NCBI GenBank assembly: GCA_035631875.1
Contig: DASQHX010000010.1
Coordinates: forward strand, 280,708 to 332,633
DNA: 51,926 bases
Direction of reading: 5' to 3'
Source: Nitrosopumilaceae archaeon
GTDB taxonomy: Archaea; Thermoproteota; Nitrososphaeria; Nitrososphaerales; Nitrosopumilaceae
The position numbers and the translations under genes are program-made. This document shows positions 1 through 51,926 of the stretch, piece after piece. Each line of letters begins with the position of its first letter. Within the stretch, counting starts at the first letter, position 1. The notes under the pieces were generated by a model, which was given only the letters and a program-made list of their open reading frames with translations, was not told the DNA's origin and ran no database searches.

Positions 1-193
1 CTTGTTCTAGTTTCATAGAGTCTAACGCAAGAGCTTGACCTGCAACAGATGGGCTGATAATTCCACTGGAAGCCAAAAGACTATCACTCATAGTTGTTTT
101 TCCGTGGTCTACATGAGCTATAACTCCAAAGTTTCTAATGTTCTTCTTGTTTCCAATTATTTTCAGAATCTGATCTGTTGCCTTAAATTTCAT
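1..193 (-). CDS. fusA: Translation elongation factor EF-2, N-terminal part (gene runs off the window)
   Basis: This is the GTPase that translocates the ribosome during protein synthesis. The visible 64 residues begin MKFKATDQILKIIGNKKN and contain the P-loop/G1 motif AHVDHGKTT at residues 26-34, followed by MSDSLLASSG, which is the archaeal/eukaryotic EF-2 pattern rather than bacterial EF-G. The start is an ATG at 193 on the minus strand and the rest lies left of the window. It is divergent from the mqnD gene, so the 212-base gap holds both promoters. An EF-2-like paralogue cannot be excluded from this fragment, but the motif context is typical of the housekeeping gene. Confidence 0.93.
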   Translation of the reverse strand, partial: MKFKATDQILKIIGNKKNIRNFGVIAHVDHGKTTMSDSLLASSGIISPSVAGQALALDSMKLEQ

Positions 194-374
194 CTTTAAA
201 AAAAAATCCTTGTCTAGCCGGTATTAAACGTTTAGAACATCTTTTGATGATTTTACAAGATCAATAGATCATTTATGATCTTTGCATATCTGATCTTTTT
301 TGCTTTTACAAAACAGATATCTTTTTGATTTCTTTTTGAAATGCTAAAATTGTTCTCGTCTTTTTCACAACTTG

Positions 375-387
375 ATTTTTATAATAG
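375..387 (+). promoter_or_regulatory. TATA box of mqnD
   Basis: The sequence TTTTTATAATAG is centred about 25 bases before the ATG at 406. That is the archaeal TATA-to-start spacing expected for a leaderless transcript. The rest of the 194-405 gap shows repeated GATC-containing words but no gene. Confidence 0.6.
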
Positions 388-405
388 ACGCAAAAAATCA
401 TCATT

Positions 406-1227
406 ATGGAAATCACCCTAGGTCACACTCCTGACGCTGATGATGCTTTCATGTTTTATGGAATGCTTACAGGAAAGGTAACATCACCGCATTTTAAGGT
501 CAATCATGTTGTGGAGGATATTGAAACACTCAACAAAAGAGCTTTAAAGCATGAGCTTGATGTTACTGCCGTTTCCGTACATGCATGCGCATACATTCCA
601 AATTACACAATTTTACGTAGCGGTGGAAGCTTTGGCAAAGGATATGGCCCCATTGTAATCTCAAAGAAAAACTTGACAATAGATGAGCTAAAAAAGACAA
701 GAATTGCCATTCCTGGCAAGATGACCTCAGCATTTTTGCTTTTACAATTAATGATTGGCAAATTTGATTATGTTGAGATGAAATTTAGTGATATTACTGC
801 CGCTGTTGAAAAAGGAGAAGTTGGTGCTGGACTAGTAATACATGAAACCCAGATAACTTATGATAAGGAAAATTTATCAAAAATTCTTGATGTCGGTTCG
901 TGGTGGAGAGATTCTACAGGCGGTTTGCCAGTACCGCTTGGTATCAATGTGATGAGCAATCACTTTGAAAGCAATATTATAAAAAAATTTGACGAGTTTT
1001 TTCGCGAATCAATCATATACGGAATGGCGCGGGTAAACGAAGCATTAGATTATGCCATGGAATACAGCAGGGGTCAACCACGAGATCTTATTGAAAAATT
1101 TGTTAGAATGTATGTAAATGATATCACTATAGAAATGGGCATCTTGGGAGAAAGCGCAATCAGAGATCTCTTCAAGTTTGGCGTTGAAAAAGGATTTGTT
1201 CCTGAGTTTGATCTGCGCATAGCTTAA
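406..1227 (+). CDS. mqnD: 1,4-dihydroxy-6-naphthoate synthase family (futalosine menaquinone pathway)
   Basis: MqnD converts cyclic dehypoxanthine futalosine to 1,4-dihydroxy-6-naphthoate, a precursor of menaquinone. The 273-residue protein matches the family length. It opens with the MqnA/MqnD signature LGHTPDADDAFMFYGMLTGK, where bacteria have SPCPNDTF. It also has the late MqnD block VGSWWRDSTGGLPVPLGIN, which separates it from MqnA. It has no signal peptide or membrane segment, so it is a cytosolic, periplasmic-binding-protein-like fold. A radical-SAM mqnE lies 310 bases downstream on the other strand, which supports the pathway call. The start ATG is placed by the TATA box 25 bases upstream. 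A plain substrate-binding protein annotation is the weaker alternative. Confidence 0.85.
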   Translation: MEITLGHTPDADDAFMFYGMLTGKVTSPHFKVNHVVEDIETLNKRALKHELDVTAVSVHACAYIPNYTILRSGGSFGKGYGPIVISKKNLTIDELKKTRIAIPGKMTSAFLLLQLMIGKFDYVEMKFSDITAAVEKGEVGAGLVIHETQITYDKENLSKILDVGSWWRDSTGGLPVPLGINVMSNHFESNIIKKFDEFFRESIIYGMARVNEALDYAMEYSRGQPRDLIEKFVRMYVNDITIEMGILGESAIRDLFKFGVEKGFVPEFDLRIA

Positions 1228-15516: not shown

Positions 15517-17535
15517 TTACTTTTTGTTGTTATTGTTTTTGTCGTTATTATTGTCATTATGATGACTGCCACTGTCTGACTTGTCATCTTTGTCTACAAA
15601 CTTGTGTATCTCAATGTGTCCCTTTACATTTCCAGAATTGTGATACAATACCTTTCCAGAACTATCAGTTATTGTAATTGAAAAAACATCATGATCTCCT
15701 GTCTTGTCAGGATCAATTATACTTGCGATAAATGTATAGCCATGGTGATTAACATCATTTTTTGATTTGTCGTCATTCTTGTTATTGTCATTATTGTGAT
15801 TGTCAAGGGTTCCATTTCCCACAAATGTTGCTTGTGTTATAGTTGGGTCAACTGAAAGAAATGAAACCTTATTGCCATCTAGTGTGATCTTTGCAGACTT
15901 GTCGTGATATTCCAGATTACCTTTTGTTGAATGTTTAGTTCCTATATCTGACGTTACCTCAAATGAAAAGTCGGTGCCCTTTCCAATGTTTCCTTCTCCT
16001 GTTACCCTACCATTTGTTGGGGTAGCAATAGTACCAGGGTCTGAGATCACACCAGATGTCGGATTGCTATCCAATGGACCATTGTCTATTATTGTGATTG
16101 TCATTTTATTTCCGCTAATTGTTATAGGTGAAATGCTTACCCAATTTCCTCCAATCAGCTTAAAGTATTTTGCATTACTGTCAAGTGTTGCAGGAGATGT
16201 GATTGTTACAGTACCAGATGTTGGCGGCAAAAATCCTGAAATTGACCATGAGAAAAAGCCAAGAGGGTATGACCCTCCAGCTGGAGGAGATGTTGTAAGG
16301 TTTGGTGGCAGTATGGAATTAAGCGATATGAATCCTCCACTTTTTGAGTTAAATATTATCTGTCCAGTGCCAGATGGAGGTGATAGGGTAACTGTTGGGT
16401 TTGGCTTTACTTGGAGGAAATATTCTGAGCTGGTACTAGTGTTAAAATCAGGATCACCTTCGTATTTTGCAGTAATGGAATGAGTTCCTCCTAGTAATGA
16501 TGATGTGGTAAATGTTGCAGAACCTCCAGTTAGTGTAACAGGTGAACCAAGCTGAGTTACACCATCAAAGAAAACTATTGTACCACTAGGTGCTCCAGCT
16601 CCTGGAGATACTGGACTTACTGATCCAGTAAATGTTACAGACTGGGTAAATAACGATGGATTGAGACTGGATATTACAATAGTTGCAGTGTCTGCCTTGT
16701 TTACAGTTTGTTGTAATTGTGGACTGGTACTTGGATTAAAGTTGGAATCGCCAGAATATGTTGCAGTCTTGAAATCCAATCCTACAAGTAGTGATGATGT
16801 GGAAAATGTAGCAACACTACCTTTTGTAGTTCCTGTTCCAAGTATGGCGGTTCCATCAAGGAATGTTACTGTCTCGCCATCAGGAACAGATGGGCTTATA
16901 GTTGCAGTAAATGTTACAGACTGACCAAATGTGGATGGATTGGGACCAGATGTTAGAGTAGTGGTGGTGTCTAGTTTGCTGACGGTGCATATTTTGTTTC
17001 CAATATTATCCCAGCAGAATGCTATTGGCTGCCCCGTAGAACCATCAGCATTTTGTGGAAAAAATTCTGTCTGTAGTTTGCCATAATTGAAGCTGATACT
17101 TTCAGACGGCCTATCGCCTCCTGACGAAACGCTATATGCTGAAATTAATACATTTTCCAATGTATAGTGTGCAAATGTGAACAGTTTACCATTTTGATTC
17201 TTTGTCAGAAAAATTTCCATCTTGGGAATGGTGTTACCAGTAAGGAGTTTATTTACCAACGGGACTGATGATTTTTCCATCAGTTTTGTTACATCAAGAT
17301 CACTAACACTTGGTGCTCCTGCTGTTCGGTCACCAGTACCGGTAGGTGATGATATTGTTCTTGTTGAACCAAAATGAAAACTATCTAGCTGTATGTCATT
17401 TTGAAATCCTTGTGCTGTTACATCTCCGGGGATAGAGTCTATCTTTAGAAAGACATCTGCATAAGCATTGCATGTTGAAAAGGAAAACAGAGTCACGGCA
17501 ACAATTATCAAAAGAAGAAAAGTGTTTTTGATCAA
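15517..17535 (-). CDS. Exported Hcp-domain multidomain protein (Hcp + 2 Ig-like + choice-of-anchor-U-like + acidic tail)
   Basis: This 672-residue protein starts at a TTG. The signal peptide is residues 1-26 (NAYA/DVF). Residues 27-180 are an Hcp1-type domain: VFLKIDSIPGDV, VTKLMEKSSVPLVNKLL, LENVLISAYSVSSGGDRPSE, and FFPQNADGSTGQPIAFCWD. Residues 188-279 and 281-377 are two bacterial Ig-like (Big_3-type) domains with the TYSGDSNFNPST / KYEGDPDFNTST motif. Residues 378-505 look like a choice-of-anchor-U domain (YPLGFFSWSISGF, AKYFKLIGGNWVSIS). Residues 506-645 form another beta domain with YTFIASIIDPDKTGDHD, interrupted by an Asn/Asp run. The tail is Asp/Asn/Lys-rich. Hcp normally builds the type VI secretion tube, but here it is on a Sec-exported protein. 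The adjacent upstream gene at 17636 is a bare Hcp paralogue. Confidence 0.85.
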   Translation of the reverse strand: MIKNTFLLLIIVAVTLFSFSTCNAYADVFLKIDSIPGDVTAQGFQNDIQLDSFHFGSTRTISSPTGTGDRTAGAPSVSDLDVTKLMEKSSVPLVNKLLTGNTIPKMEIFLTKNQNGKLFTFAHYTLENVLISAYSVSSGGDRPSESISFNYGKLQTEFFPQNADGSTGQPIAFCWDNIGNKICTVSKLDTTTTLTSGPNPSTFGQSVTFTATISPSVPDGETVTFLDGTAILGTGTTKGSVATFSTSSLLVGLDFKTATYSGDSNFNPSTSPQLQQTVNKADTATIVISSLNPSLFTQSVTFTGSVSPVSPGAGAPSGTIVFFDGVTQLGSPVTLTGGSATFTTSSLLGGTHSITAKYEGDPDFNTSTSSEYFLQVKPNPTVTLSPPSGTGQIIFNSKSGGFISLNSILPPNLTTSPPAGGSYPLGFFSWSISGFLPPTSGTVTITSPATLDSNAKYFKLIGGNWVSISPITISGNKMTITIIDNGPLDSNPTSGVISDPGTIATPTNGRVTGEGNIGKGTDFSFEVTSDIGTKHSTKGNLEYHDKSAKITLDGNKVSFLSVDPTITQATFVGNGTLDNHNNDNNKNDDKSKNDVNHHGYTFIASIIDPDKTGDHDVFSITITDSSGKVLYHNSGNVKGHIEIHKFVDKDDKSDSGSHHNDNNNDKNNNNKK

Positions 17536-17635: not shown

Positions 17636-18220
17636 TTAGGACACTTTGGCTAGTGCAAGATCGTAAGTTACTTGGGATGGGGCTAAAGTTCCATCAGGAT
17701 TTTGAGAATTGAAGATAAATGTGATCTTGGTAAATGACAAAGAGATACTTTCAGATGGCCTATCGCCTCCTGACGAGACACTATATCCTGATATCAGCAC
17801 ATTTTCAAGTTTGTATTGAGCATAGACAACAAGATTTCCATTGTTCACCTTTACCAAATCAATTACAACAGGTTTTCCTTCTCCCGCCAAAGCTTGCTGT
17901 AACAACGATGGAGATGATTTATCCATTACTTTTGTTACAACTATTTCACTAACACTTGGTGCACTTCCTTGTCGGTCACCTGAACCACTTGTCGGTGATG
18001 ATATAGTTCTACCAACACCCCATTGAAAACTGTTAAGCTCAATCCAATCCTGATGTCCTGTTGCAGTTACCTCACCTTTGATACTCAAATTATCATAATT
18101 CATGTAAATTGGATCACCTGCAGAAAGAGGAGTTGGAGTACTAGTAACAGCAAAAGAGTTTGAACTTCCTACTAAGATTAATCCCAATAAAGCAGCAATG
18201 ATGATAAAGGAATTCTTCAT
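17636..18220 (-). CDS. Exported single-domain Hcp (type VI tube protein) homologue
   Basis: This 194-residue protein has a signal peptide (MKNSFIIIAALLGLILVGSS, cleavage near SFA). One Hcp domain follows: YMNYDNLSIKGEVTATGHQD, WIELNSFQWGVGRTISSP, VTKVMDKSSPSLLQQAL, YKLENVLISGYSVSSGGDRP, and NPDGTLAPSQVTYDL. It is closely related to the Hcp domain of the neighbour at 15517 (shared RTISSPT, SVSSGGDRPSESIS), so the two arose by duplication. They are 100 bases apart on one strand and may be co-transcribed. The frame is open to 18277, but the TATA box at 18241-18252 fixes the start at 18220. Hcp proteins form hexameric rings. Ring formation outside the cell is an inference. Confidence 0.87.
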   Translation of the reverse strand: MKNSFIIIAALLGLILVGSSNSFAVTSTPTPLSAGDPIYMNYDNLSIKGEVTATGHQDWIELNSFQWGVGRTISSPTSGSGDRQGSAPSVSEIVVTKVMDKSSPSLLQQALAGEGKPVVIDLVKVNNGNLVVYAQYKLENVLISGYSVSSGGDRPSESISLSFTKITFIFNSQNPDGTLAPSQVTYDLALAKVS

Positions 18221-18240
18221 TATAAGATTGATTTTTTTAG

Positions 18241-18252
18241 AATTATATAAAG
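18241..18252 (-). promoter_or_regulatory. TATA box of the exported Hcp gene
   Basis: The minus-strand CTTTATATAATT is centred about 26 bases before the ATG at 18220, supporting the short start and a leaderless message. Confidence 0.55.
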
Positions 18253-18442
18253 ATGATCCGTATTCTTTACATATCAAAATGATTTCCAGTTTTGGAAATT
18301 CCCAAAACCTTTTACAAATTTTAAAAATTTTTTTAAATAATGCACATGTGAAAAAAAAGATTCTAAAAGATACGGTAGTTTCAAATCAAGAGTTTGCCTA
18401 TCATTTACAAATAGGCATAAGACATTATTTTTTAATTAAATT

Positions 18443-19279
18443 TTATTTTATACATATGGGATGATTAAGACAGTGTAGGTCTGCACCGCTAATATCATCG
18501 CCCTTTATGTCAGCATCATGCAGATTTGCACCTGTGAGATTTGCATTGTGAAGATTTGCACCTTTGAGAAGAGCCTCAGATAGATCTGCCCCTGAAAGAT
18601 CAGCACCTGCAAAGTTCGCATCTGTCATGTCAGTATAACTGAGATTTGTCCCTGAAAGTGTTGCATTTGTTAGGGTAGCATTCATGAGTGCGCCATTTTG
18701 CAAATTAGCACCAGATAGGTCAGCACCTGCAAGAATAGCAGCGTTAAGATTAACGAATTTACCATTGGCATTTGTGAGATTAGCATATGACAGATTAGCT
18801 CCTGCTAGTTGTGCATTTATCATTTCAATATTTTGAAGATGTGCCCCAACTAGATTGACATGGAAAAGATATGCCTTGTCCATATTCGCATGTTCAAAAT
18901 CAGCATATGAGAGATTGGAATTATGAAGATTGATATGATTTAGATTAGCTTCTGAAAAATCACAGTTAGACCAATTCACAATTGGAAAATTTCTGTCCAT
19001 GCACTTGTCATCTGCGTCTGGCGTTAAATTTGGTTGTACTAGTTCTAAGAGTTCCTCTGCTGATTCTTGCGATATGAATCCTTGATTGAGAAGATATTTT
19101 ATGGTATGATCATATTCAGAATTACTAATCTTGCCTTGTACATTCCATCTAGTAATATGTGATATCCATGATGGGATGTGTTCTTCTTCACCATAAACAA
19201 AATTTAAAGCGAAATTTGGCATGGATGAAGCTGACAAAAGTATAATCACAAACGATGCAACCTTAACCTGACTTTTCAT
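18443..19279 (-). CDS. Exported pentapeptide-repeat protein
   Basis: This 278-residue protein has a signal peptide to about residue 30. A short helical module follows at 35-71 (IPSWISHITRWNVQGKIS, IKYLLNQGFIS), of the IPxWI...ISxxEY..I.YL...G.I type that recurs in thaumarchaeal secreted proteins. From about 103 to 270 there are tandem pentapeptides, A(D/N)LxX (ANLSY, ADLSG, ANLHN), forming a right-handed quadrilateral beta-helix. Three cysteines near the ends (KCMDRN, HCLNHPIC) may cap the helix. It has no C-terminal anchor. Pentapeptide helices mediate binding. The partner is unknown. Confidence 0.85.
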   Translation of the reverse strand: MKSQVKVASFVIILLSASSMPNFALNFVYGEEEHIPSWISHITRWNVQGKISNSEYDHTIKYLLNQGFISQESAEELLELVQPNLTPDADDKCMDRNFPIVNWSNCDFSEANLNHINLHNSNLSYADFEHANMDKAYLFHVNLVGAHLQNIEMINAQLAGANLSYANLTNANGKFVNLNAAILAGADLSGANLQNGALMNATLTNATLSGTNLSYTDMTDANFAGADLSGADLSEALLKGANLHNANLTGANLHDADIKGDDISGADLHCLNHPICIK

Positions 19280-26085: not shown

Positions 26086-27411
26086 TCATTTGAGCGTACT
26101 TGCAACAGGAATTCCATCTGCCCAGTAAAATCCAGTCTGGCCAGACGGCAATATGTCATATGTATAGGTACCATTGTATGGCACCTGTTCTGCACTTTTT
26201 ATTTTAGAGCCATCAAGTGTATCTCCTACCAACAAATCTCCAAAGAGTCTGCCATCTGCTGTTGGATGATTTGGTGAGACGTACAGCTCTCTCTTGTCAG
26301 CCAAAACTAGATGAACCATGATATGATTTTGAGTAACCAGAGTTCTTCCTGTCTTTAATATTATTCCAGCTTGCTTGTGACCAGAATTATTTTGTGTCAA
26401 TACAGTCATTCCAACCTTTAGATCCTTGACATTGACAGGACCGTTTGGCGTATCAATTACAGTGTTTTCAGAAAGACAGATGGGGCATGGCCTATTTTGA
26501 TATTCTTTTTTAAGAAATGTAGCAGTACCGTTACTAATCTTGACAAGTGTCAGCTCAACAGTACAACCATTGCTTGCACTATCTCCAATGTGCAAAGTTA
26601 TCGGGTAACCAACATTTGTTGCAAGAGGATATTCTCGAAAATCCAAACCCTGAATATTATCTGGAAAGATCTTTTTCACAAGTAACGGACCTTCTCTTTG
26701 GCCTTCAATGAGCGTTACAAGGATTCCAGTATTTTCTTGGGTTTTTGCCCAGCCGAGTCTTACAAGTTTTGCAGCAGTTAATGATCGTACACAAGCTGGA
26801 GAACTGTCTTTGGTTTTGATAACTAGCTGAAGACCTTCTTTGCACTTTACATCTTGTGCTGCAATTCCTGATTTGAATTGCTTTAGTGGAGATAATACGT
26901 TTTCATTTACTATTTTGGTTCCTGTATTGTTATCAGATATTGTAAACAAGAATGATTTCGAGATGATTTTTACGGTTTCTGGCTGGTTTTGGTCTGCTTG
27001 ATTTCTCACGGTGTATGGAATCGTTACAGTTGCATTTGCAGTTCCAGCTACTGTTGCCCTATAGGTAAGGGCTGAACCAGGACTAGTTATTGTAATTTTC
27101 TCACCAGATTCAATTTTTTGTAACATGACAATCATTGGACATATTATTTGGTTTTGGTTAATTGTAACATGATTATCAAAGACTACAGAGAACGGTCCGT
27201 CACAAACGCCATGTTGAAGTAATATCTGATTTGGAGAATTGTTTGCTAGAGTTACATTGACTGTGAATGTGTCTCCGACTTTGATTGTAGGCGGTTGCAC
27301 TTGGATATTTTGAATCCCTACATTTTTTGTCACGTCAGCAAATGCGGTATTGCTAACAATAGCAAGACTTGAAGCAAGAATTACAATTATGTATAGATGT
27401 AGAGTTTTCAT
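26086..27411 (-). CDS. Exported protein with C-terminal Hint (Hedgehog/intein) domain
   Basis: This 441-residue protein has a signal peptide of the MKTLHLYIIVIL type (cleavage near AFAD). An Ig-like domain lies at about 30-160. The thaumarchaeal module SGIAAQDVKCKEGLQLVIKT...SPACV occupies about 173-223, with another region at 225-305. The Hint domain runs from C312 to the end. It has CLSENTVIDTPNGPVNVKDL, then VGMTVLT, ELYVSPNHPTADG, LLVGDTLDG and TYDILPSGQTGFYWADGIPV. The catalytic N-terminal cysteine and the NHP block are present. The usual final His-Asn is missing and the protein ends VASTLK, so splicing is not expected, only N-terminal cleavage or transfer. This suggests Hedgehog-like self-processing of the exported N-terminal part. 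Confidence 0.8.
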   Translation of the reverse strand: MKTLHLYIIVILASSLAIVSNTAFADVTKNVGIQNIQVQPPTIKVGDTFTVNVTLANNSPNQILLQHGVCDGPFSVVFDNHVTINQNQIICPMIVMLQKIESGEKITITSPGSALTYRATVAGTANATVTIPYTVRNQADQNQPETVKIISKSFLFTISDNNTGTKIVNENVLSPLKQFKSGIAAQDVKCKEGLQLVIKTKDSSPACVRSLTAAKLVRLGWAKTQENTGILVTLIEGQREGPLLVKKIFPDNIQGLDFREYPLATNVGYPITLHIGDSASNGCTVELTLVKISNGTATFLKKEYQNRPCPICLSENTVIDTPNGPVNVKDLKVGMTVLTQNNSGHKQAGIILKTGRTLVTQNHIMVHLVLADKRELYVSPNHPTADGRLFGDLLVGDTLDGSKIKSAEQVPYNGTYTYDILPSGQTGFYWADGIPVASTLK

Positions 27412-27708: not shown

Positions 27709-28572
27709 TTGACAAAGGCTAAAAAAAAGAAACTCAGACGAGTCGCTAAAAGACGTACTGTCAGAAAGACAAGATACACGTCAAAGGTTTCCTATCGTTT
27801 AAAGGAGATTCCAATAAAACAGATTCAGGTCTGGAAAGAGGCTCAGGCAAGAAAGCTTGACAGGGCGGGAATTTCAGAACTATCAAAGTCAATTAGAACA
27901 GAGGGACTGCAAAATCCTCCAATGGTACAAAAAGAAGGAAATAGGTATCTTTTGATGTCAGGACAACGTAGATTGGCTGCACTGAAAAGACTGGGTGCAA
28001 AAAAGATTCCTGTTTTGGTTTTGACCAGAAAAACAGAATATGACACACCAGATGCCAAGGCGGCTTCTGTTGTTGAAAACATTCACCGCAAAAACATGAA
28101 TGTAAAGGAGATGGCTGATGCATGCGCATTTTTGGCAGAACAGATGGGCAAGTCAAAGGCTGCCCAGTCGTTAGGACTTTCAATGTCGACATTTAAGAAA
28201 TTCCATGGTTTTGCAGGAGTACCAGACAAGCTAAAAGAACTTGTGCCAAAGATAATCTCAAGGGATGCTGCAACAAAGTTGCATCAAATCATCCCAGATG
28301 TTTCAAAAGCAGTTAAAATTGCAAATCAAATATCAAAACTCGAATCGCAAATAAAAAAGCGATATCTTAAAGTTTTAGAACGCAATCCAAATTCATCCCA
28401 CAAAAAGATAATGAAAAAGGCAAGATCATTGGCATTACAACAAAATGTTTCATTAAGGCTGTCAAAGAGAAAAACACGTGGACTAGATGTACAATCAAGA
28501 CGTCAGGATCTACACCCAAATGAGCTTGCAAACAAAATCGTGTCAGACTGGCTTAGCAAGCGTGGGTACTAG
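27709..28572 (+). CDS. ParB/Srx-fold DNA-binding protein
   Basis: This 287-residue protein starts at a TTG. A very basic N-terminal arm (KKKKLRRVAKRRTVRK) is followed by a ParB N-terminal domain at about 30-125: IPIKQIQVW, ISELSKSIRTEGLQNPPMVQ, the GxRR box SGQRRLAALKRLGAKKIPV, and VVENIHRKNMNVKEMADAC. A helix-turn-helix follows (GKSAAQSLGLSMSTFKKFHG-like, about 145-165). The C-terminal third is helical and basic. No parA is nearby and no parS-like palindrome was found, so chromosome partition is not shown. It may be a nucleoid or regulatory protein using the ParB CTPase fold. Confidence 0.82.
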   Translation: MTKAKKKKLRRVAKRRTVRKTRYTSKVSYRLKEIPIKQIQVWKEAQARKLDRAGISELSKSIRTEGLQNPPMVQKEGNRYLLMSGQRRLAALKRLGAKKIPVLVLTRKTEYDTPDAKAASVVENIHRKNMNVKEMADACAFLAEQMGKSKAAQSLGLSMSTFKKFHGFAGVPDKLKELVPKIISRDAATKLHQIIPDVSKAVKIANQISKLESQIKKRYLKVLERNPNSSHKKIMKKARSLALQQNVSLRLSKRKTRGLDVQSRRQDLHPNELANKIVSDWLSKRGY

Positions 28573-29323: not shown

Positions 29324-30361
29324 ATGACATACAAAACAAACAAGACCATACTCATTCTGAGTATAGCAGCAACAATAATTCTAAGCGGAGTTATTCTTAC
29401 ATCAAACACACTTAGTACTGCACTAGCTCAAACATCACCACCTCCCACTACATCAGCATGTCCTCCAGGTGATCAAGTCCAACACTGGGACAAGATTGTC
29501 TTTATGATACAATCGTTTAGGGAAGGAAGTGATAATGGGCCACGTTCAATTGGAAATATTCCAGCACAGATGCTCAACACAGAGCTTGATCTGAAAATAT
29601 CTGATCAGCCAGGTGTTGTGGCAAACCTAAAACAGGAAATCAGTGATACCTTGGCAACTCAATTTTCTCTTACACCAGCACAGAAAGCAAGCTTGAACAT
29701 CAAGATAATTTCTGACAACTATGAGACCGTAAACTGTGGCATGACAGGCCCACAAGGTCCAGCAGGTCCAGCTAGCACAGTTCCAGGTCCAGCAGGTCCA
29801 CAAGGTCCCGCAGGTCCACAAGGTCCAGCAGGTTCATCTGGTACTGGCGGTTCTAGTGATGAGCAATCTCCACCAATAACAAAGTTCCTTAAAGTAACTG
29901 GACAAAAGCAGGGAGCTATCACAGGCAGTGTGACACAAAAAGGAAAAGAAGGCACGATTGCTGTAATTGCAGTAGAGCATGCGATAATAAGTCCAAGGGA
30001 TCCGGCATCTGGACTGCCAACTGGAAAGAGAGTGCATCAACCACTAGTGATTATAACACACATAGACAAGGCAACACCGCTACTTTACAACGCTATAACA
30101 AGTAACGAGAATCTTCCAACTGTTGAGCTTGATTATTATCAAACTGGACAGGACGGCAAGGAAACCTTGTACTTTAAAATAGAGTTAACCAACGCCAACA
30201 TTTCTTCACTCAGCCAGACTAGTCTAAATTCTGCAGATGATCCACACTTGAACATGTATGGAGAATATGAGGAGATCTCTTTCACATACCAGAAAATAAC
30301 ATGGACTTGGACTGATGGCGGAATCACCGCACAAGACGACTGGGAAGCTCCAGTAGTCTAA
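29324..30361 (+). CDS. Exported collagen-like/Hcp fusion protein
   Basis: This 345-residue protein has a signal peptide to about residue 36 (TALAQ). An N-terminal domain at 45-138 is bounded by two cysteines. A collagen-like segment at 141-170 consists of GPQGPAGPA, a break, and [18 protein letters not shown]. The C-terminal Hcp domain at about 187-342 is of the Vibrio/E. coli Hcp subfamily: [68 protein letters not shown] and a DDWEAPVV end. Hcp forms ring hexamers and collagen stretches form trimers, so a trimer-of-stalks or ring-bearing stalk is conceivable. It has no anchor tail. A poly-T terminator follows. It is a different Hcp type from the pair at 15517/17636. Confidence 0.88.
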
Positions 30362-50680: not shown

Positions 50681-51926
50681 CTAAAATCGCTTGAAGTTTG
50701 GTATCATCTTTTGTCTTATACCCATATACACCGCTGCTACAACAACAAACATGATTACCAAGCTAAAGGAAAATGGAAAATCTGGAATTGATGTAGGACA
50801 TGTATTGATTGGAGATTTACCTTGAATGGGATTCCCTGTTATATTGGATCCACATTCTTCGTTAATGGTACCATAGTTGGTGATGGTACCAAAGTTGTTT
50901 AGGGTACTGGTAGAGTCAATCGTAATGGTACCAGAGTTATCGATGCTATGATCTGATAAGTTAGTGATGGTGCCACCTTTGTCAACTGTGATGGTGGTGC
51001 CTGAGCTGATAGTTTCTTTTCCATGACCACCTAAGGTAAGAGTGCCACCAGAACTGACAGTTTCTGTTTTGTGACCACCAACTGTGATGTTTTCGTTCTG
51101 GTCTACAGTTTCTGTTCTGTTGCCATGTATAGTGATGGTTTCGTTCTTGTCCACAGTTTCTGTTCTGTTGCCATGTATAGTGATGGTTTCGTTACCGTCA
51201 ACAGTCTCTGTTCTGTCGTGATGCACTGTTATGGTTTCGTCATGGTCTACGGTCTTTGTTCTAGAGCCACCTACAGTTATGGTTTGGTCATGGTCTACGG
51301 TCTCTGTTCTGGAACCATGTATAGTAATAGTTTCTTTACCGCTGACAGACTCTGTTCTGTCGCCATGTATTGTTATGGTTTCATCATGGTCTATGGTCTT
51401 TGTTCTCTGGCCAGTTATTGTGATCTTTTCGTTACCGTCAACAGTCTCTGTTCTTGAACCATGTATAGTAATGGTTTCTTTACCGCTCACCGACTCTGTT
51501 CTGTCGCCATGAACGATTATGGTTTCATCACCGCTGATAGTTTCTGTTCTCTGACCTGTTATGACGATATTTTCATTGCCGCTGACGGTTTTTTGGCTGT
51601 TACCAGTTATAGTGATGGTGTTGTCACCACTGAAAATTTCTTGAGTGTTGCCACTTAGGGTAACGAGTGAGTTACCGCTGATAGTTTCTTTGGCGTTGCC
51701 ACTCATGGTCATGGTTCCGCCGTTAAGGTTGAGAATTCCGCCGTTGATGTCAAGTAAACCAGTATCGCTCAGATTGATGGAGGCACCATTGACAGTAAGG
51801 GTGCCGCCGTTGACAAATGAGCCGTCGCCGTTGACATTAACGCCACCGCCGTTGAGAGGTGTGCCGGCACCGTTGACAGTAATGCTGCCACCGTTGACAA
51901 GTGTACCGCCACCGTTGACAGTAACG
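50681..51926 (-). CDS. Surface-anchored VgrG/gp5-like beta-helix repeat protein (5-prime end outside window)
   Basis: The frame is open from the right edge of the window to 50681, so at least 414 residues are visible and the N-terminus is missing. The first ATG inside (51712) is not the start. The visible part begins with NGGxLxV-type repeats (TVNGGGTLVNGGSITVNG). It continues with about 15 copies of a 16-residue unit such as TETVDGNETITIHGNR, made of two 8-residue VxVxGxxx steps. This is the pattern of the triple-stranded beta-helix of VgrG and phage gp5 spikes. A Ser/Asn-rich segment (TITIDSTSTLNNFGTITNYG) and a Cys pair precede the anchor IPDFPFSFSLVIMFVVVAAV with YMGIRQKM. It is probably a trimeric surface fibre. 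Confidence 0.8.
   Translation of the reverse strand, partial: VTVNGGGTLVNGGSITVNGAGTPLNGGGVNVNGDGSFVNGGTLTVNGASINLSDTGLLDINGGILNLNGGTMTMSGNAKETISGNSLVTLSGNTQEIFSGDNTITITGNSQKTVSGNENIVITGQRTETISGDETIIVHGDRTESVSGKETITIHGSRTETVDGNEKITITGQRTKTIDHDETITIHGDRTESVSGKETITIHGSRTETVDHDQTITVGGSRTKTVDHDETITVHHDRTETVDGNETITIHGNRTETVDKNETITIHGNRTETVDQNENITVGGHKTETVSSGGTLTLGGHGKETISSGTTITVDKGGTITNLSDHSIDNSGTITIDSTSTLNNFGTITNYGTINEECGSNITGNPIQGKSPINTCPTSIPDFPFSFSLVIMFVVVAAVYMGIRQKMIPNFKRF
51000..51720 (-). repeat. Coding tandem repeats of 48 bases (16 residues)
   Basis: About 15 imperfect copies of a 48-base unit, with runs such as ACGGTTTCTGTTCT on the plus strand recurring. The array also opens long but meaningless frames on the opposite strand. 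A second array of shorter NGG-type repeats occupies 51721-51926 and continues past the window. Confidence 0.75.

Follow-up and report, generated by a model that had tools for sequence, protein, structure and literature searches.

A type VI secretion tube domain behind a collagen-like segment in a predicted secreted archaeal protein

What a tube protein of the type VI secretion system (T6SS) might be doing in an archaeon, at the end of an apparently exported protein with a collagen-like segment, is the question raised by a gene of a soil ammonia-oxidising archaeon of the Nitrosotalea group. The gene (hereafter P0001) is a 345 aa open reading frame at 29324-30361 on the plus strand of the 51,926-nucleotide stretch of DNA analysed here (hereafter the window), and its coordinates and strand are as given in the original prediction, which had described a secreted protein with a Cys-bounded N-terminal domain, a collagen segment and a Vibrio-type Hcp domain. 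The host genome is rated 99.99% complete with 0.07% contamination. The gene comprises the following features:

29324..30361 (+): whole gene, 345 aa, with signal peptide, Cys-bounded domain, collagen-like stalk and Hcp head; orthologues at L040 6001-7038 and L041 4718-5725
29324..29431 (+): predicted Sec-type signal peptide, residues 1-36, identified by inspection and as the sole hydrophobic segment (hydropathy); nearly identical in the paralogue P0004 of the same genome
29459..29737 (+): N-terminal 'HWDK' domain bounded by Cys46 and Cys138, conserved in P0001-P0004 and also found, as homologous copies, in further exported proteins of archaea
29738..29851 (+): collagen-like Gly-X-Y stalk with one STVP break, residues 139-176; orthologue stalks vary in length and retain the Gly-X-Y phase
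29882..30358 (+): C-terminal Hcp head of the TssD subfamily, residues 187-345, placed by profile, structure and tree evidence
29984..30043 (+): extended loop L2,3 of the Hcp head, residues 221-240, the best kept segment (63% mean identity to bacterial tubes)

The presence of an Hcp domain at the C-terminus was confirmed by profile searches, in which residues 188-329 match the Pfam T6SS_HCP family (PF05638; 1.2e-33, 116.6 bits against a cut-off of 23.5) and residues 186-342 match the NCBI TssD model TIGR03344 (153.9 bits against a cut-off of 58.9), and the peptides originally quoted in its support are present. PDB sequence matches include Pseudomonas aeruginosa Hcp3 (1.2e-31), Vibrio cholerae Hcp (1.7e-28) and Escherichia coli EAEC Hcp1 (4hkh; 2e-25). 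The label 'Vibrio-type' fits only loosely: V. cholerae Hcp is the second-best of these matches, but the protein lacks the 9-residue loop of Hcp3 and V. cholerae Hcp, and is like EAEC Hcp1 in that respect. Most of the head is confidently predicted in an AlphaFold model (eight sequences), with many blocks at 81-95 pLDDT and weaker loops, and the modelled head is predicted to adopt the Hcp beta-barrel fold with one helix. A Foldseek search with this model retrieved the Hcp crystal structures 6a2v, 5mxn, 4hkh and 3he1 at E-values of about 1e-15 or better and target-normalised TM scores of 0.78-0.92, the best being 0.92 to 4hkh. PDB entry 7fcf, listed as 'Fimbrial protein', was considered as a lead to Hcp in fimbriae and rejected, as the oddly named molecule in it is the crystallised Hcp of a T6SS.

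The only hydrophobic segment identified in the protein by hydropathy (residues 5-30) reads as a signal peptide, predicted to be of Sec type, in agreement with the original claim that this archaeal protein is secreted and has its Hcp head after a collagen-like segment. The Cys-bounded domain that follows was likewise borne out, with Cys46 and Cys138 conserved in all four aligned sequences (P0001-P0004) and an HWDKIVF motif between them; this domain has no Pfam match and no significant PDB match, and a fold search with its model, which is of moderate confidence, returned nothing significant. Directly after it, the stalk consists of four Gly-X-Y triplets, the STVP break and a further eight triplets, (GPA/GPQ)x5 GSS GTG GSS. 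The collagen segment is real but short: its longest in-phase Gxx run (8 triplets) exceeds anything in 20,000 shuffles of P0001 itself, which yielded at most 6. Pfam Collagen scores 18.4 bits on P0001, below its cut-off of 27.2, so a triple helix is at most plausible for this stalk; on the similar stalk of the paralogue P0004 the same model reaches 28.0 bits and passes. The P0001 stalk also matches phage tail-fibre families and, weakly, SclB/Lcl models.

The domain order was sought in other genomes through a close-relative scan of genome contigs from 84,980 species, which returned two loci, both archaeal and both encoding the complete four-part order: one from a Thaumarchaeota archaeon (L040), 91% identical overall to P0001, and one from a Candidatus Nitrosotalea sp. 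(L041), 78% identical. The orthologue stalks differ in length and keep the Gly-X-Y phase, and one has no STVP break. Estimates of dN/dS among the orthologues (0.26-0.30 for the whole gene, 0.16-0.22 for the head) indicate that the protein is kept by purifying selection. A plastocyanin-like gene and succinyl-CoA synthetase-like genes flank the L040 orthologue, while L041 has different neighbours, and no shared operon or conserved neighbours were found around the orthologues; since these neighbourhoods differ, the P0001-type gene is a stand-alone unit. The L041 locus also encodes, 4 kb from the collagen-Hcp orthologue, another collagen-like protein (1-795, minus strand) in which Gly-X-Y runs alternate with repeated NDFYLD..GNYYKKITGTW units.

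A search of the host genome with the N-terminal domain identified a paralogue, P0004 (263 aa; contig C6, L046 216-1007, minus strand). Its signal peptide closely matches that of P0001, its Cys-bounded domain is the same and its collagen-like stalk is longer, but it ends in a different, Cys-containing head unrelated to Hcp. With the same kind of stalk bearing another head, Hcp is an exchangeable head on an archaeal stalk, and this head exchange is the strongest clue to function. Remoter archaeal copies of the N-terminal domain are stand-alone or belong to other exported proteins that have a membrane segment at the C-terminus. A further exported Hcp gene (L046 7352-8026) is situated about 6 kb from P0004.

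The window contains a second group of Hcp proteins, encoded by the adjacent genes 15517-17535 and 17636-18277 (both minus strand), which are exported and score below the TssD (TIGR03344) cut-off. One protein of the pair is short and the other long, with Big_3_5 and choice-of-anchor U domains in the long one, and such adjacent short/long pairs recur in seven genomes of the family. The 17636 protein is 47% identical to an Azospirillum tube adjoining tssH and vgrG. Phylogenetic inference with type Ia tubes of environmental Alphaproteobacteria included, and with types named after PMC5874247 but assigned by similarity to typed structures rather than from the tree in that work, groups the three collagen-Hcp proteins with type Ib/II-like bacterial tubes (support 100/100) and the other archaeal Hcps, including the 15517/17636 pair, with type Ia (support 100/100). 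A single group of all archaeal Hcps is rejected (AU p = 7e-8), upholding the view that the P0001 head belongs to a subfamily separate from the pair; the addition of the type Ia tubes made the test decisive, as an earlier AU test without them did not reject such a group (p = 0.41). The position of the collagen-Hcp trio beside L060, a single unannotated contig, is weakly supported. The original argument that two subfamilies within 15 kb indicate functional use rather than chance stands as far as purifying selection goes, but proximity carries little weight, because in the relative G493 the two subfamilies lie on different contigs.

Six further matches to PF05638 in this family, all weak, with an in-frame TAG and from one genus (loci L033-L038), were rejected as out-of-frame artefacts; in the four of these loci that were read (L033-L036) the matching stretch is covered in a different phase by the uninterrupted frame of another gene. 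The family-wide count of genomes with Hcp is consequently 22 of 250, not 28.

In the ring of Hcp3, helix a1 and strand b6 of one subunit contact b2 and b9 of the next (PMC13323088), and in another Hcp the extended loop is required for ring stacking (PMC4650826). Measured against nine bacterial tubes, with strands assigned only approximately to the numbering of PMC13323088, most interface segments of the P0001 head are about as conserved as among the bacterial tubes themselves: the extended loop (0.63 identity against 0.56 among bacteria), helix a1 (0.50 against 0.54), b2 (0.41 against 0.36) and the C-terminal strand (0.50 against 0.46). Less conserved are the strand region 278-300 (0.25 against 0.36) and the loop after it (0.21 against 0.32). 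The head retains 28 of 34 near-invariant positions of bacterial tubes. With a strong profile match and most interface segments preserved, the original prediction passes the refutation test that it had set, and ring formation by the P0001 head survives this comparison and is plausible.

The order of the domains, the subfamily of the head, the orthologues and the purifying selection on them, the head exchange and the absence of the T6SS families searched (see below) are computational findings. We consider P0001 most likely a secreted surface or extracellular structural or adhesive protein, operating outside any injection machine. In its full form this reading, to which we assign a probability of roughly 45%, holds that P0001 is a Sec-exported stalked protein whose bacterial-derived Hcp head self-associates into six-membered rings. 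The modular protein would be exported to the surface or extracellular space, where the N-terminal domain, bounded by a putative disulfide, probably anchors it or starts its trimer, with the Gly-X-Y segment serving as a short stalk. The TssD/Hcp head would have been acquired from bacteria and placed on a stalk that this lineage also pairs with another head; most likely still self-associating, it would draw the stalked heads into six-membered rings, and two trimers per ring would fit both symmetries. The product might be a multivalent adhesive or cross-linked layer. Counting against this explanation, the closest sampled bacterial tubes are only about 44% identical to the P0001 head, and the N-terminal domain occurs together with a TssD head sporadically, in 3 of 250 genomes of the host's family.

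A serious if tentative alternative is that the ring has been lost and the Hcp fold acts as a monomeric or trimeric binding head, that is, an adhesin domain, with the Gly-X-Y segment possibly a plain flexible spacer. The brevity of the Gly-X-Y run, its interruption, its score under the Pfam cut-off and the disorder of the stalk in the AlphaFold model would all suit a spacer, as the weaker conservation of region 278-300 would suit a lost ring, and since the P0004 stalk carries an unrelated head, the stalk does not require a hexamer. However, conservation is highest in the extended loop and the C-terminal strand, the parts of a tube protein that matter for stacking and ring contact, and orthologue stalks of unequal length retain the Gly-X-Y phase, both of which favor the ring-forming, stalked protein.

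A more elaborate version of that ring-forming protein, which we consider doubtful, has a type VI tube ring, gained by horizontal transfer, displayed on stalks of trimeric collagen, two trimers to a hexamer, yielding a ring-capped fibre or lattice of a kind so far undescribed for collagen or Hcp; such a structure may bind the type VI tubes or effectors of bacteria, or neutralise them. An anti-competitor device, in which a secreted stalked Hcp would protect the archaeon by binding, capping or sequestering bacterial type VI tubes or Hcp-chaperoned effectors, is improbable: the head does belong to a bacterial tube subfamily, and effector cargo is bound in the lumen of the Hcp ring (PMC13323088), but the known carriers are three archaeal species only and no immunity-like or effector gene was recognised beside the orthologues. 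A defence library queried with P0001 returned no match, and viral contigs scanned with the full protein showed collagen similarity in one phage and nothing else.

The possibility that an injection or secretion machine of archaea has gone unrecognised and that P0001 works in it is largely refuted and very improbable. The host genome does contain five Hcp-domain genes, but it has no match to the T6SS sheath families TssB/TssC (PF05591, PF05943), to the gpV OB-fold of the VgrG spike (PF04717) or to the phage-type sheath of extracellular contractile injection systems (PF04984), an absence that covers these named families, each of which was detected in an E. coli control. Whereas a T6SS tube gene is expected to have no cleavable signal and to lie among T6SS genes, P0001 has a hydrophobic signal and non-T6SS neighbours; neither a Sec signal nor an N-terminal stalk occurs in the bacterial tube genes read, and no operon is common to the orthologues. 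An assembly chimera or bacterial contamination, suggested by the bacterial type of the head, is refuted by the same fusion in three separate assemblies, by a signal peptide and N-terminal domain that match those of the archaeal paralogue P0004 on a separate contig (C6), and by the 0.07% contamination.

Set against known systems, the P0001 head resembles the TssD/Hcp tube of the T6SS (TIGR03344, PF05638; 3he1, 5mxn, 4hkh) in sequence, predicted fold, extended loop and C-terminal DDW motif, but P0001 adds a signal peptide, a Cys-bounded domain and a collagen-like stalk at the N-terminus, and is a stand-alone gene in an archaeal genome where the searches found neither the sheath nor the spike families. 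It shares with bacterial and phage collagen-like surface proteins (Scl1/Scl2, Lcl, phage tail fibres) a Gly-X-Y stalk that follows an N-terminal domain and leads to a C-terminal head, yet its stalk is much shorter, it has no LPXTG anchor and its head is Hcp. The exported Hcp-like proteins of Nitrososphaeria (the 15517/17636 pair and relatives) combine a signal peptide with the Hcp fold in the same genomes, but form a separate subfamily on the type Ia side, below the TssD cut-off. In specialised Hcp effectors, the toxin domain sits at the C-terminus. Hcp is one domain of a larger protein both in these effectors, where it is joined to a toxin domain (PMC13323088), and in P0001, where the extension is instead N-terminal and structural and the protein is predicted to be Sec-exported.

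Searches of an open-access literature collection yielded no relevant paper on Hcp in archaea or ammonia-oxidising archaea, on collagen in Nitrosotalea or Nitrososphaera, or on Hcp fused to collagen. The parts are known, and their combination in an archaeal, machine-free context is absent from the literature and collections searched; bacterial collagen-Hcp proteins may exist, as bacterial genomes were searched for close relatives only. P0001 is a type VI tube protein outside its machine, with a secretion signal and a collagen-like stalk, in which part of a weapon has apparently been reused as a surface or extracellular building block. It makes the idea of Hcp as a stand-alone extracellular assembly domain directly testable, and the fact that one archaeal stalk carries different heads offers a way to study how the little-known surfaces of ammonia-oxidising archaea are built. 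For annotation, 'type VI secretion tube protein' in an archaeal genome does not imply a secretion system.

Several other genes of the window deserve mention. An exported pentapeptide-repeat protein (18443-19279, minus strand) adjoins the Hcp pair. The exported product of 26086-27411 (minus strand) has a Hint domain of the intein/hedgehog type (PF13403, 3e-07) at its C-terminus, and upstream of P0001 lies a gene for a stand-alone protein with a ParB N-terminal domain (27709-28572, plus strand). At 50681-51712 (minus strand), a gene that runs off the contig end encodes octapeptide repeats ETITIHGDRTESVSGK and a C-terminal membrane anchor. These repeats match the needle beta-helix of T4 gp5/VgrG (PF06715, 5e-37; PF22178, 1e-35), and may be a spike-type beta-helix borne by a surface protein of the archaeon, or else reflect the convergence of a simple repeat.
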